From positions 124,001-188,000 of the forward strand of contig JANRJM010000017.1 in NCBI GenBank assembly GCA_033763975.1: a DNA stretch of 64,000 bases. Direction: 5' to 3'. A program made the translations under genes and the position numbers. The notes below the pieces were generated by a model. It saw only the letters and a list, made by a program, of their open reading frames with translations, did no database searches and was not told where the DNA came from. The stretch's first letter is position 1, and each line of letters begins with the position of its first letter. Of this stretch, positions 49,498 to 54,505 are shown piece by piece. The stretch comes from Planctomycetota bacterium. GTDB taxonomy: Bacteria > Planctomycetota > Phycisphaerae > Phycisphaerales > UBA1924.

Positions 49498-50511
49498 ATG
49501 AGCGACACGCTGAACCAATCCGAGATCGACGCGCTCCTGGCGGCGGCATCCGAGCCCGAGCAGGCGCCGGACAGCGCGGGGCTGCTGTTCTCGCGCTCCC
49601 GTCGCGAGGGCCCGTCGCCCGAAGTGCGCGAGTACGACTTCAAGCGGCCCGAGCGGGTGAGCAAGGACCAGATGCGCTCGCTGCAGACGCTGCACGAGGC
49701 GTTCTCCCGGAACTTCGGCGCCGCGATGTCGGGGTACCTGCGCACCATCGTCGAGGTGAAGGTCGCCTCGTGCGAACAGATGACGTATTCGGAGTTCACG
49801 GGGGGGCTGCCGAACCCGACGTCGTTCAACCTGGTGGAGGCGGACGGGCTGGAAGGCCAGATGTGCCTGGAGATCAGCCCGCTCATCATCTTTCCGATCA
49901 TCGACCGGCTGCTGGGCGGGAACACGCAGGAGCTGTTCATCCCGCAGCGTCCGTTGACGCTGATCGAGACGCGGCTGATCGGGAACGTGACGAAGCGGGC
50001 GCTGACGGCGCTCGCCGAGGCGTGGGCGAACCTGCGCGCGTTCGAGTTCCGGGTGTCGGCGTCGGAGAGCAACCCGCAACTGGTGCAGATCGTGCCGCCG
50101 AACGAGGTGGTGGTGGTGATCGCGTTCGAACTCAAGATGAGCAACCGCGCGGGCACGATGAACCTGTGCATCCCGTACAACGTGATCGAGCCGGTGATGG
50201 AGCAGTTGTCGAGCCAGAACTGGTTCGCGCACACGAAGTCGCAGGCGGTGAAGGGGCACGTCGCGCAGATCTCCGGGCTGCTGTCGCGCGCCCCGCTGGA
50301 ACTCACGGCGGTGCTGGCAGAGACGACGATGACGCTGCACGATCTCGTGCAGCTGGCGCCCGGGCAGATCGTGACAACCGAGCGTTCGGCGACGGCGCCG
50401 GTGGCGCTCGAGGTCGAAGGCGAGCGGAAGTTCGCATCGCAGATCGGGCAGCACAAGGGGCGTCGTGCGCTCAGGATCATCAGGGCGACGGGCCCGGATG
50501 AGAGAATTTAA
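49498..50511 (+). CDS. fliM: Flagellar motor switch protein FliM
   Basis: A 337-aa C-ring protein that binds phosphorylated CheY and sets rotation direction. The N-terminal CheY-binding peptide LNQSEIDALLAAA (5-17) is conserved; YDFKRPERVSKDQMRSL follows (about 48-64); the middle CheC-like domain contains FPIIDRLLGG; the C-terminal part is the SpoA (FliN-like) domain with LQLAPGQIV-type strand (VQLAPGQIVTTE). No other flagellar gene is adjacent, so it is isolated. The spacer to dsbD is divergent. No strong ribosome-binding site before the ATG. Confidence 0.96.
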   Translation: MSDTLNQSEIDALLAAASEPEQAPDSAGLLFSRSRREGPSPEVREYDFKRPERVSKDQMRSLQTLHEAFSRNFGAAMSGYLRTIVEVKVASCEQMTYSEFTGGLPNPTSFNLVEADGLEGQMCLEISPLIIFPIIDRLLGGNTQELFIPQRPLTLIETRLIGNVTKRALTALAEAWANLRAFEFRVSASESNPQLVQIVPPNEVVVVIAFELKMSNRAGTMNLCIPYNVIEPVMEQLSSQNWFAHTKSQAVKGHVAQISGLLSRAPLELTAVLAETTMTLHDLVQLAPGQIVTTERSATAPVALEVEGERKFASQIGQHKGRRALRIIRATGPDERI

Positions 50512-50594
50512 ATCCGCCCCCCCCCACCCACGCAGAAATACGTGACTCGCATGAGAAGGCGGGAGACGTCGCGGCGGAGTGTCGTGCACTCAGG

Positions 50595-50600
50595 TAGCAT
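50595..50600 (+). promoter_or_regulatory. Putative -10 box of the hybrid kinase gene
   Basis: TAGCAT, 63 nt before the ATG at 50664; same hexamer as upstream of the genes at 8355 and 15391. Confidence 0.35.
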
Positions 50601-50663
50601 CCGCGGCGCTTGATTGTCTCGCCGACATTTCGCGGTCGGCGGGATCTCTGCGCGGAGGCCGCC

Positions 50664-52706
50664 ATGAGCGAGTGTTCGATGTGCCTGACGGAGCCGCGGG
50701 CAGAGGGGAGCTTCCTCGGCAACCTGTTCTCGACGGACTTCGTGGCGCGGGCGGACTGCATCGGACAGCGGGCCGAGATCATCTGGCTGCACGTGGCGTC
50801 GGACGCGACCATCGCGCTGGCGTATTACTCGATCCCGCTGGCGCTCTGGTGGTTCACGAAGCGGCGCACCGACCTGGTGTTTCGGTGGATGTTCCTCCTG
50901 TTCGCGGGGTTCATCTTCTTCTGCGGCACCACGCACGTGTTCAACATCCTGGCGTTCTGGTACCCCATGTACCGCCTCGACGGGGTCGTGAAGGCGGGCA
51001 CGGGCGTCGTGTCGATGTTCACGGCGTTCGCGCTCTGGCCGCTCCTGCGGCGGGCCGAGCACCTGCCCTCCCCCAACGCGCTTCGCGAGGCGAACGAGGC
51101 GCTCGAGCGGGAGGTCGGCGAGCGCCGGCGCGCGGAGGCGGCGCTCTCGCTCGCCAACACGGGGCTGGAAGAGCGCGTGCGCGAACGCACGGCCCGCCTG
51201 GACGATGCCAACCGGCAGATGATCGCGCAGCTCGCGGAGTTGGAGGCGGTGTACCAGGCCGCGGCGATCGGGCTCTGCCAGTTGGACCGCGACGGCCGCC
51301 TGACGCGCTCGAACGCGGAGTTCCGGGTGCTGACGGGGATCAGGACGGCGGACGGCGAACGCCCGCGCCTGGTCGATGCCCTGCCGGAACTGGAGGGCGT
51401 CTTGCGCGGGACGGGCGAGGAAGACGGGCCGGCGGGCGAGCGGACGCCGGTGCGGATCGGGCGCCCGGGGCAGGAACTCGACTGGCTGATGGGGATCCGG
51501 CCGGTCCGCACGCCCGACGGGACATTGCTGGGGCACTCGGTGGCGATCAAGGACGTGACGGAGACGATGCGTCTGGAGCGCCAGGCGCGCCAGAGCCAGA
51601 AGATGGAGGCGATCGGGCAGCTCGCCAGCGGGGTGGCGCACGACATCAACAACACGCTGACCGCGATCTACGGGTATCTCAGCCTGGTCCGCGCGCAGCT
51701 CGCCCCCAACCACGCGGCGGCGGTCTCGCTCGACAAGATCGCGGTGGCGGCGGAGCAGACCGCCCGCATGACCAAGGCGCTGCTCACGTTCTCGCGTCCC
51801 GCGGCGACGGTGCGCGAGCCCGTCGAGCTGACGGCCGCGCTCACCCATGCGCTGGAGCTGGCGAAGGGGCTGATGCCGGCGCGGATCGAGATCTCGGAGG
51901 ACCTGACGCCGACCAGGGGCGTGTACGTGCGCGCCGACGCCACGCAGTTGCAGCAGGTGCTGCTGAACCTGGCGATCAACGCGCGCGACGCGATGCCCGC
52001 CGGCGGGCGGCTGCGGATCACCACGGGGGTGAGCAACGGGCACGTGACGCTGACGGTGGCCGACACCGGCACGGGCATCGCCGAAGAACTGCTGCCCAAG
52101 ATCTTCGACCCGTTCTTCACGACCAAGCCGCGCGGCGAGGGCACCGGGCTAGGCCTGTCCATCGTGCACGGCATCGTGACGGCGCACGGGGGGACGATCG
52201 ACGTGGCATCGGTCCCCGGGGAGGGCACGGCGTTCACGGTGACGCTGGCCCGGGTCGACGCGCCGCCCCCCGCGTCGCGTGCGGAGGCAACGCCCGACGT
52301 CGTGGTGAAGATCGGGGCGACGGTGGTGCTGGCCGACGACAACGTGCACGTGCGCGAGCTGCTGGCGATGCAGGTTCGTCGGAGCGGGTACAACGTGCTG
52401 GAAGCGCGCGACGGGGTCGAGATGCTGCGCCTGGCGCGTCAGCACGCGGGGTCGATCTCGGCGTACATCGTGGACGTGGACATGCCGAACAAGACGGGGA
52501 CGGAGTGCCTGCGGGTCTTGCGGAGCGAGGGGGACCGGGTGCCGGCGGTGCTCATAACCGGGGGGCGCGAGCCCGACGGCCCGCCGGACGCGTACACCAT
52601 CATCCTCAACAAGCCGTTCTCGGGCAGCGTGCTTCTCCGGGCGATCAGCACGCTGGTGACGGAGCCCCGCGGAAGCGACAAGCCCGGAGAAACGCGCCCG
52701 GATTGA
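50664..52706 (+). CDS. Hybrid histidine kinase with ethylene-receptor-like membrane domain
   Basis: A 680-aa sensor. The N-terminal three-helix domain (about 38-130) carries SDATIALAYYSIPL and FFCGTTHVFN. D47, Y54, I57, P58, C87 and H91 fall at the same spacing as the ethylene- and copper-binding residues of plant ETR1 (Asp25, Tyr32, Ile35, Pro36, Cys65, His69). A coiled coil (about 140-195), PAS (about 195-300), HisKA with H326 in GVAHDINN, HATPase (NxxxNARDAMP, DTGTGIAEELL, GTGLGLSIVHG) and a receiver domain with phospho-acceptor D604 and NKPF follow. Ethylene or another small hydrophobic ligand, bound through copper, is a real possibility. GGAGG before the ATG at 50664. No cognate regulator gene is beside it. 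Confidence 0.92.
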   Translation: MSECSMCLTEPRAEGSFLGNLFSTDFVARADCIGQRAEIIWLHVASDATIALAYYSIPLALWWFTKRRTDLVFRWMFLLFAGFIFFCGTTHVFNILAFWYPMYRLDGVVKAGTGVVSMFTAFALWPLLRRAEHLPSPNALREANEALEREVGERRRAEAALSLANTGLEERVRERTARLDDANRQMIAQLAELEAVYQAAAIGLCQLDRDGRLTRSNAEFRVLTGIRTADGERPRLVDALPELEGVLRGTGEEDGPAGERTPVRIGRPGQELDWLMGIRPVRTPDGTLLGHSVAIKDVTETMRLERQARQSQKMEAIGQLASGVAHDINNTLTAIYGYLSLVRAQLAPNHAAAVSLDKIAVAAEQTARMTKALLTFSRPAATVREPVELTAALTHALELAKGLMPARIEISEDLTPTRGVYVRADATQLQQVLLNLAINARDAMPAGGRLRITTGVSNGHVTLTVADTGTGIAEELLPKIFDPFFTTKPRGEGTGLGLSIVHGIVTAHGGTIDVASVPGEGTAFTVTLARVDAPPPASRAEATPDVVVKIGATVVLADDNVHVRELLAMQVRRSGYNVLEARDGVEMLRLARQHAGSISAYIVDVDMPNKTGTECLRVLRSEGDRVPAVLITGGREPDGPPDAYTIILNKPFSGSVLLRAISTLVTEPRGSDKPGETRPD

Positions 52707-52731
52707 AGCGGCGCGACCCGCACCCTATCAT
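52703..52731 (+). promoter_or_regulatory. Sigma-70-like promoter upstream of nusA
   Basis: TTGAAG (52703-52708), a 17-nt spacer and TATCAT (52726-52731). The -10 matches five of six consensus bases. It overlaps the stop of the kinase gene and would start a leader of about 395 nt before nusA. Confidence 0.6.
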
Positions 52732-53134
52732 TGGCCGGATTGGTGCAGGGTCCGTCGTTGCCGGGAGTGTCCGGGGCGGCGGCCTTGGAGTGACATTCGA
52801 TGCGCGTGAACGACAGCCATGCACGGTGACCCGGTCCAATCGAGCCCTGCGCCGCGCAGGGTCGATCGTCCGAGTCCCGCCGGGGCTGCGTCCGGCGCGC
52901 GGGGGAGCACCCGCGCGTAGGGCGCGGGATTCCCGGGGGCAGGGTGTGCCCGCCCCGGGGTGCTCGGGGTTCCCGGGAGAACTGGGGCGGGTGTCGGCCA
53001 CGGGCGTCGGTCCGTGGCCGCGGTGCTTTTGGGGCCGGGCCAACGGGTGGTCGGTGGGGTCGGGTGGGGTTGAAGTACGGGTCTGACAGGGCGGGATCAC
53101 ACATCTCGGTAAATGAAGAGCAGGAGTGGCGGCG
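52732..53134 (+). ncRNA. Long G+C-rich leader of nusA, structured
   Basis: About 400 bp with no credible ORF. It contains a perfect CCCTGCG-CCG-CGCAGGG hairpin (52845-52861) and a 9-bp stem CGGCCACGG/CCGTGGCCG (52995-53003 with 53012-53020). A CTTTT lies about 8 nt after the second stem, so it is terminator-like. In many bacteria rimP lies before nusA, but no RimP-like reading frame is seen here. Regulatory function is inference; it may just be a long untranslated region with an attenuator. Confidence 0.4.
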
Positions 53135-54505
53135 ATGAACACGGCGGAAATGCTCCGGATTCTGGACTCGATCGCGCGAGATCGGAACATCGATCGGTCG
53201 CTGCTGATCCGAGATCTCGAGCAGGCGATGGTCTCCGCCGCCCGGAAGTACTTCAACACGCTGGACCCCGAGGAGTTCGCGTGCGCGCTGGACCCGATGA
53301 GCGGGCAGTTCGTGCTGACGCGTCACGGGGAGCCGATGTCGATGCCGCCCGAGGCGTTCGGGCGGATCGCGGCGCAGACGTTCAAGCAGGTGATGATCCA
53401 GAAGTTCCGCGACGACGAGCGGAGCAGCATCTTCGACGACTTCAGCAAGCGCGTGGGCGAGATCGTGACGGGCGTGGCGCAGCGGTACGAGGGCGGGGCG
53501 CTGGTGGTGCAGATCGACCGGGCCGAGGGGTTCATGCCCCGCAGCGAGCAGATCCCCGGCGAGCAGTTCGCGGCCGGCGACCGGGTGCGCTGCCTGATCC
53601 TGGACGTGCGCGACGCGGGGAGCCAGGTGAAGATCGTGCTGAGCCGCGGGCACCCGGACTTCATCAAGAAGCTCTTCGAGGTCGAGGTGCCGGAAGTCGC
53701 GGAGAAGATCATCGATATCAAGGCGATGGCGCGCGAGGCCGGGTACCGCACGAAGATCGCGGTGGCGTCGATCGATTCGAAGGTGGACGCGGTGGGCGCG
53801 TGCGTGGGCGTGCGCGGCAGCCGCATCAAGAACATCGTGGACGAGCTGAACGGCGAGAAGATCGACATCGTGCGCTGGAACGAGAGCAGCCAGATCCTGA
53901 TCCAGAACTCGCTCAAGCCCGCCGAGGTGTCGGAGGTGAGCCTGTGCTTCGAGCTGGGGCGCGCCACCGTGGTGGTGCGCGAGGACCAGTTGAGCCTGGC
54001 GATCGGCAAGCGCGGGCAGAACGTGCGTCTGGCGGCACGCCTGACGGGGTGGGACGTGGACATCCTGACGCCCGAGGAGTTCGCGCGCGGGATCGAGACC
54101 ATGGCCGCGACGATCCAGACGGTCGAGGGCGTGACGGAGCAGCAGGCCGACAAGCTGGCGGCGCTTGGCATGGTGAGCGTGTTCGACGTGGAAGAGGTGG
54201 GCGCGGAGGTGGTGCGCGAGCAGCTCCAGGTCGAGGAGACCGTGGCGGCGGCGATCGTCGAGGCGTGCGCGGTGAAGGCGAAGGAAGTGGCGGCCCAGCA
54301 GCAGAAGGACAAGGAAGAGAAGGAACGCCGCGCGAAGGAAGACGCCGAGGCCGCCCGCAAGGCGCTCGAGGGCGGGGAGGCCACGACCGCGGGCGAGCAG
54401 GCGGCGGCGGCGATTCTGGGCGGAGGCCCGGAGGCGCCGTCGGGTGCGGCGACGCCGGACGCGAACGGCGAGGCGCGGGCGGCGGACATTCTGGGGCAGG
54501 GGTAA
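53135..54505 (+). CDS. nusA: Transcription termination/antitermination factor NusA
   Basis: A 456-aa RNA polymerase-associated factor. The N-terminal polymerase-binding domain (about 1-125), an S1 domain (about 130-200, GALVVQIDRAEGFMPRSEQIPGE in part), and two KH domains (about 205-340, VGVRGSRIKNIVDELNGEKIDI and AIGKRGQNVRLAARLTGW in part) are in order. A C-terminal highly charged, Ala/Lys/Glu-rich tail (about 385-456) replaces the acidic repeats of E. coli. The ATG at 53135 has AGGAG with 8-nt spacing; a GTG 3 codons earlier is less likely. It heads the nusA-infB-DUF503-rbfA cluster. Confidence 0.96.
   Translation: MNTAEMLRILDSIARDRNIDRSLLIRDLEQAMVSAARKYFNTLDPEEFACALDPMSGQFVLTRHGEPMSMPPEAFGRIAAQTFKQVMIQKFRDDERSSIFDDFSKRVGEIVTGVAQRYEGGALVVQIDRAEGFMPRSEQIPGEQFAAGDRVRCLILDVRDAGSQVKIVLSRGHPDFIKKLFEVEVPEVAEKIIDIKAMAREAGYRTKIAVASIDSKVDAVGACVGVRGSRIKNIVDELNGEKIDIVRWNESSQILIQNSLKPAEVSEVSLCFELGRATVVVREDQLSLAIGKRGQNVRLAARLTGWDVDILTPEEFARGIETMAATIQTVEGVTEQQADKLAALGMVSVFDVEEVGAEVVREQLQVEETVAAAIVEACAVKAKEVAAQQQKDKEEKERRAKEDAEAARKALEGGEATTAGEQAAAAILGGGPEAPSGAATPDANGEARAADILGQG

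Follow-up and report, generated by a model that had tools for sequence, protein, structure and literature searches.

Putative ethylene receptors are reported from proteobacteria and cyanobacteria in a review (PMC7700396) and from further bacterial phyla in the paper on the Azospirillum brasilense receptor AzoEtr1 (PMC11819568). The latter describes SynEtr1 (slr1212) of Synechocystis as signalling by phosphorelay, and AzoEtr1 as binding 14C-ethylene and affecting biofilm formation (PMC11819568). For the plant receptor ETR1, a 2026 review names Cys65 and His69 as the Cu(I) ligands; it states that no high-resolution structure of the membrane domain exists and that spin-label distances favour another model over that of AlphaFold (PMC13012798). 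Within our literature search, which covered few subscription journals, no title or abstract opening named an ethylene receptor from a planctomycete or from the Phycisphaerae.

The window, i.e., the whole stretch of 64,000 nucleotides analyzed here, carries a gene for a hybrid histidine kinase with an ETR1-type membrane domain. The genome had been judged planctomycete-like from its letters, and this agrees with the named Phycisphaerales MAG contig of locus L075, which is the same DNA as locus L039 of the window's family. Judging from the sequence, we consider it likely that the protein is an ETR1/AzoEtr1-type bacterial ethylene receptor, encoded by an acquired gene and responding to ethylene via Cu(I).

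Domain architecture and predicted ethylene-binding site

The open reading frame (50664-52706, forward strand, stop included) starts with ATG, has no internal stop, and encodes 680 aa. An in-frame TTG lies farther upstream of the ATG at 50664; numbered from this ATG, the relative from Phycisphaerales bacterium SJ401 aligns from residue 4. The features of the gene are the following:

50664..52706, forward strand: ETR1-type hybrid histidine kinase, 680 aa (translation and Pfam)
50673..50684, forward strand: N-terminal CxxC, C4-S-M-C7 (translation)
50757..50759, forward strand: C32, at -15 from the essential Asp (the same in all 39 rows of alignment A2)
50778..51056, forward strand: predicted ETR1_N ethylene-binding domain, residues 39-131 (Pfam, 123.5 bits; AlphaFold2)
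50802..50804, forward strand: D47, AtETR1 D25 (alignment)
50922..50936, forward strand: C87 to H91, predicted Cu(I) ligands, AtETR1 C65 and H69 (alignment)
50991..50993, forward strand: K110, AtETR1 K91, signalling output (alignment)
51072..51185, forward strand: predicted long helix, probably a coiled-coil linker, residues 137-174 (AlphaFold2)
51237..51557, forward strand: PAS domain, residues 192-298 (Pfam)
51615..51800, forward strand: HisKA, residues 318-379, phospho-acceptor H326 (Pfam and alignment)
51936..52250, forward strand: HATPase_c, residues 425-529 (Pfam)
52323..52592, forward strand: receiver domain, matched residues 554-643, phospho-acceptor D604 (Pfam Response_reg)

According to Pfam and the structure prediction, the domain order is ETR1_N, predicted coiled coil, PAS, HisKA, HATPase, and receiver. 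The ETR1_N match (E 4.2e-36, 123.5 bits against a cut-off of 27) is far beyond chance; the profile search, which the original prediction had named as a possible refutation, assigns the domain to the ETR1 family. The predicted PAS, complete HisKA/HATPase, and receiver were likewise recovered, every domain over its Pfam cut-off: HisKA, HATPase_c, and Response_reg all exceed theirs and the PAS is barely over (23.9 bits against 22.6), while a sixth match of the kinase, HPTransfase, stays under its own. No GAF domain, which follows the membrane domain in plant subfamily-1 ethylene receptors, was matched in the protein at E 0.001, the PAS being found at residues 192-298. Alignment and direct reading located the motifs of the kinase (H326 in HDINN, NLAINARDAM, DTGTGI at 467, and GEGTGLGLS at 491) and of the receiver (D558-D559, D604 in DVDMP, T632, and K650, the last slightly past the matched residues). 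With HisKA and HATPase_c over cut-off, H326, and the G-boxes, the output parts of a histidine kinase are present. Assignment as a CckA-like or AtoS-like kinase was rejected, as the NCBIfam kinase matches (25 of 106 matches listed) are partial and far under the curated cut-offs (AtoS 231.7 of 646, CckA 225.6 of 1000). No PDB chain matched by sequence (E up to 1) or by Foldseek (E 0.001).

All seven ethylene-binding residues of AtETR1, plus the output lysine, are present when the protein is aligned with the plant receptor. The six residues originally assigned (D47, Y54, I57, P58, C87, and H91) are correct and their spacing is indeed identical to that of the plant receptor, the offsets from D47 being 7, 10, 11, 40, and 44, as for D25, Y32, I35, P36, C65, and H69; the seventh, I84, corresponds to AtETR1 I62 and has the same offset (+37). 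The ETR1 alignment that had been proposed as a check finds D25, Y32, I35, P36, I62, C65, H69, and K91 all kept. K110 is 63 residues from the Asp, versus 66 for the lysine of AtETR1, which sits in helix 3 and is coupled to Asp25; the difference reflects three fewer residues in the TM2-TM3 loop. The loop of Sp7 AzoEtr1 (D35, C75, H79, K98) is shortened in exactly the same way, and that protein has the same seven residues with the same spacing. Across 46 ETR1_N loci, a subset retained after searching phylum and family, window included, the equivalents of D25, Y32, C65, and K91 are kept without exception (46/46), I35 in 45, P36 and H69 in 44 each, and I62 in 42. Residues 1-175 were modelled with AlphaFold2 as a copper-free monomer from a 39-row alignment (A2, the window and 38 of 75 candidate rows, hand-picked for spread). 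The model (mean pLDDT 91.5, pTM 0.71) has three predicted helices (residues 37-67, 74-97, and 103-132) and a long fourth.

Additional cysteines were observed ahead of this site. The CxxC also occurs in the SJ401 relative (CSLC), and we take it to sit roughly at the position of the disulfide cysteine pair of plant ETR1, a pair that links the dimer of plant subfamily-1 receptors. Of 121 bacterial ETR1_N proteins whose upstream part spans 25 aa or more (six rows with less were set aside), 114 carry a cysteine 13-17 residues ahead of the essential Asp, 110 of them at exactly -15 like C32, and frequently after HG; we know of no cysteine at the equivalent position in plant ETR1. This cysteine is a possible metal ligand or disulfide site.

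AzoEtr1, whose matches were found among plasmid records, shares the ETR1_N domain with the window protein at 49% identity over 100 residues (Sp7) and 51% (MTCC4039), and the length of the Sp7 protein (525 aa) and its four residues given above agree with the AzoEtr1 paper (PMC11819568). Both proteins have the same TM2-TM3 loop length and a PAS followed by the kinase; however, AzoEtr1 stops after the kinase, with a separate downstream regulator predicted (PMC11819568), whereas the window encodes a hybrid kinase bearing an N-terminal CxxC, with no regulator gene adjoining. AtETR1 shares with the window protein the seven identically spaced residues, Lys91, and a receiver after the kinase. It differs in having a GAF domain instead of the PAS, a TM2-TM3 loop three residues longer, and no known counterpart of the bacterial cysteine 15 before Asp, and the plant downstream pathway is absent here. 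SynEtr1, compared by its published description, also carries a bacterial ethylene-binding domain on a histidine kinase, but it is a light sensor as well and has its own response regulator (PMC11819568), unlike the window protein with its PAS and built-in receiver. The best whole-protein match among the collected loci is a hybrid kinase of SJ401 (L075/L055) with the same ETR1_N-PAS-HisKA-HATPase-REC architecture (49% identity over 709 columns, 607 bits), followed by an acidobacterial kinase (L085, 360 bits).

The proposed identity as an ethylene-receptor-like kinase is thus borne out by the Pfam family, the seven of seven residues, and the identity to the tested Sp7 receptor. Given the complete set of ethylene-receptor residues, the kinase very probably senses ethylene through copper, and by its sequence it is a further member of the known bacterial receptor family, not a new type of system.

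Genomic setting and distribution of the gene

The kinase gene lies between two conserved genes, identified by Pfam and locus comparison and given for context:

49498..50511, forward strand: fliM, upstream flank
53126..54505, forward strand: nusA, downstream flank

A search for fliM in 41 genomes gave 37 matches, own genome included, and the surroundings of 20 of the 36 others were chosen by hand. fliM and nusA are both present in 15 of these 20 loci; in the remaining five, nusA falls outside the fetched stretch, one contig stopping shortly after fliM. Measured between match ends, the fliM-nusA gap is 376-876 bp in 14 of the 15 and 5,015 bp in one (G401); by the same measure it is 2,617 bp in the window and contains the kinase, which was matched in none of the 20 fliM loci of relatives (tblastn, E 1e-8). 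The interval is present and lacks the kinase in four congeners; in a fifth the contig ends, and a sixth has no nusA downstream. To the right of the kinase, the window retains sequence common to the relatives upstream of nusA. The kinase gene is therefore best read as an extra gene in a conserved interval, which favours a gain in the window's lineage over repeated loss. The long interval of G401, a genome of the window's family, holds about 5 kb of other sequence (L164, 5347-10361), so that this interval may be a recurrent insertion place.

As to the source, a recent foreign origin is not supported by composition, since both GC and GC3 of the gene are inside the range of its neighbours (GC3 0.949 versus 0.918-0.950); the gain was therefore not very recent, or the donor genome was similar. 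Phage gain was set aside, the domain being without a match in 50,697 phage records, and so was plasmid gain, as the 19 plasmid records matched include no planctomycete by genus name. No mobile-element protein was detected by Pfam among eight neighbours. The SJ401 gene occupies another genomic place, near acyl-CoA and 2-oxoacid dehydrogenase-like genes (judged by their first letters only) and not near fliM or nusA; this lack of a conserved neighbourhood counts against the explanation that we prefer. Separately, the sensor domain has a sole viral match at E 0.001, the BFVD model of a 289-aa viral protein (A0A8E4UZR7; E 3e-4, 25% identity), in agreement with a title on megaviruses and phytohormone receptor genes cited in PMC6944256.

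ETR1_N was found in 42 of 392 sampled genomes of the phylum, in 15 of 100 of the family, and in one of seven of the genus (own genome included in each case; among the six other congeners, two assemblies reach just 71 and 76% completeness). A second ETR1_N match is absent from the own genome (3.27 Mb, 97% complete), and 14 control genomes yielded none at all. In a separate scan of contigs, the single sequence confirmed no relative, while an alignment as query did. The distribution is patchy in genus and family, an observation new to this analysis. Together with the tested AzoEtr1 and the putative receptors of other phyla (PMC11819568), the phylum count makes the earlier view, that such kinases are known from cyanobacteria and mostly unknown elsewhere, dated.

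In a tree of 127 rows and 98 columns, the window groups with L040, L075, and L143, from the Phycisphaerae or the window's family (96/88), and this foursome falls within an 87-row set alongside domains from acidobacteria, proteobacteria, cyanobacteria, and plants (100/91), a topology to be read with the few columns, an unsettled bootstrap, and the long branch of AtETR1 in mind. Outside this set are 40 of 47 planctomycete rows; L010, L011, and L013 (family f49) are inside. The named rows are 79 of the best 80 of at least 543 confirmed loci, with window-like relatives over-represented, and the tree omits L039 (same gene as L075) and L107 (stop in frame).

The segment between kinase and nusA has features of its own. 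A 9-codon ORF (MRVNDSHAR) follows a GGAG at 52800-52829, and at 52995-53020 a hairpin and T run resemble a terminator. By eye, 9-10-codon ORFs with a late His precede nusA in 12 of 16 intervals, two of them weakly alike, and the small ORF with the hairpin is a candidate attenuator of nusA-infB. Over these elements, nothing exceeds the gathering score in Rfam. In 50400-53300 as a whole, the sole Rfam match (E up to 1) is to a snoRNA family (17.4 bits against 40) and was dismissed as chance. One weak consensus promoter site (52703-52731), downstream of the kinase, was given no weight.

Apparently kinase-less ETR1_N proteins and alternative signals

Ten of the 17 ETR1_N proteins found in the family (275-358 aa) seem to be kinase-less: five of five run against Pfam matched ETR1_N alone at E 0.01, and the other five were judged by length and eye. 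A regular expression for kinase-domain motifs (30/106) was set aside, as it missed the HATPase_c detected by Pfam in L040 and omitted L050 from the kinase-less proteins. Eight of the ten are encoded less than 4 kb from a response regulator of one clade; the exceptions are L042, on a contig without such a regulator, and L050, with the regulator 710 kb off. One of the other seven ETR1_N genes of the family is near the regulator (L044, same locus as L053). The places where an apparently kinase-less ETR1_N protein occurs with the OmpR-type regulator are:

L060, 5113-8525
L062, 7616-11886
L064, 4411-7677
L065, 4353-7606
L067, 3629-7542
L068, 2763-5751
L048 and L053, further places

In the six loci given with coordinates, the kinase-less proteins have 275-306 aa and a kinase gene adjoins the regulator (L060 by Pfam, L060 and L065 by NCBIfam, the rest by eye). 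Of the genes tested with NCBIfam, two regulators have cztR_silR_copR as best family (244 and 251 bits, under the cut-off of 279) and two kinases cztS_silS_copS (210 and 190 bits, under the cut-off of 292.6). The regulator also occurs without ETR1_N, at 30 places in 26 of 100 genomes (E 1e-50), one of these places being in the own genome, on a different contig from the kinase gene. The C-terminal half of the kinase-less proteins looks PAS-like by eye, with Pfam matching none there. Together with the regulator/kinase pair, these proteins represent a possible split copper/ethylene sensor. In two of them, L052 and L054 (L065 6755-7606 and L064 6826-7677), His69 is replaced by Arg and Pro36 by Cys, with Cys65, Asp25, and Lys91 kept; the gene that flanks them on the other side, separated by no more than a small ORF, encodes a 1025-aa protein that resembles an RND pump by eye.

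That the kinase-less proteins of the family adjoin a regulator and a kinase nearest to heavy-metal families, albeit at sub-cut-off scores, would fit a Cu(I) site that is retained while the physiological signal is copper or Cu(I) availability, and not ethylene. For the window protein we regard this as unlikely: the copper-type pair is not beside its gene, the one regulator match of the genome being on another contig; Y32, I35, P36, and I62, required for ethylene binding, are also kept; and AzoEtr1, the nearest tested protein compared, binds ethylene. Copper-type kinases, moreover, normally sense via a periplasmic domain, which speaks against a copper signal as well. A broader proposal for the family, to which we give distinctly low credence, is that the ETR1 domain would be a general Cu(I)-dependent membrane sensor, occurring both in the acquired hybrid kinase and, joined to a C-terminal domain, as a kinase-less modulator of a CopRS/CusRS-like two-component pair, with copper or copper-redox sensing as the older role and ethylene as a specialisation.

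Several small gases, unsaturated or Cu(I)-binding, are ligands of Cu(I) sites, and ethylene could be a weak stand-in for one of these (e.g., CO, propene, or a microbial olefin); the literature search found no planctomycete ligand test. Yet the retention of all ethylene-binding residues, and the response of Synechocystis and Azospirillum to 8 ppb ethylene (PMC11819568, PMC6682694), render another gas quite improbable. The patchy distribution, and neighbours not common to the sole full-length relative, would be compatible with an acquired gene that is unused or degenerate and functionless in this strain, but the frame is open, binding and catalytic residues are kept, and GC3 is like that of the neighbours, so we hold this to be very improbable.

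Predicted signalling and implications

As an acquired ethylene receptor, the reading that we favour, the protein would coordinate Cu(I) through C87 and H91 in a dimeric three-helix membrane domain whose D47 positions the site; ethylene from the surroundings would bind there, as the conserved residues suggest. Binding would alter helix packing and, through the coiled coil, act on the PAS. The signal would then modulate H326 autophosphorylation and phosphotransfer to D604 in the built-in receiver, both parts being present in the protein and the transfer between them predicted. By analogy with SynEtr1 and AzoEtr1, ethylene would most likely decrease kinase activity as an inverse agonist; inhibition of autophosphorylation by ethylene is the model proposed for bacteria in the AzoEtr1 paper (PMC11819568).

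Regarding the output, no stand-alone Hpt was found in the own genome, where the two Hpt matches are both in one 853-aa frame, probably CheA. Pfam identified the eight neighbouring proteins as glyoxalase/HPPD-like, ArgH, DsbD, FliM, NusA, IF-2, DUF503, and RbfA, with no response regulator among them. Because of the missing stand-alone Hpt and neighbouring regulator, it is more likely that the receiver tunes the kinase, or that the kinase serves a distant regulator, than that a classical Hpt relay operates. Adjacency to fliM hints at motility by position alone and was given no weight, because this position is not conserved. The own genome also has 18 protein-kinase (PF00069) matches, a count from which nothing was concluded.

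The analysis documents a complete predicted ETR1-type binding site in a planctomycete. Since the kinase stands as an additional gene within a conserved core interval, ethylene sensing may travel between bacteria as an optional trait. The window and SJ401 pair, set against the separate planctomycete-type domains, would allow the residues that serve ethylene to be compared with those that serve copper.
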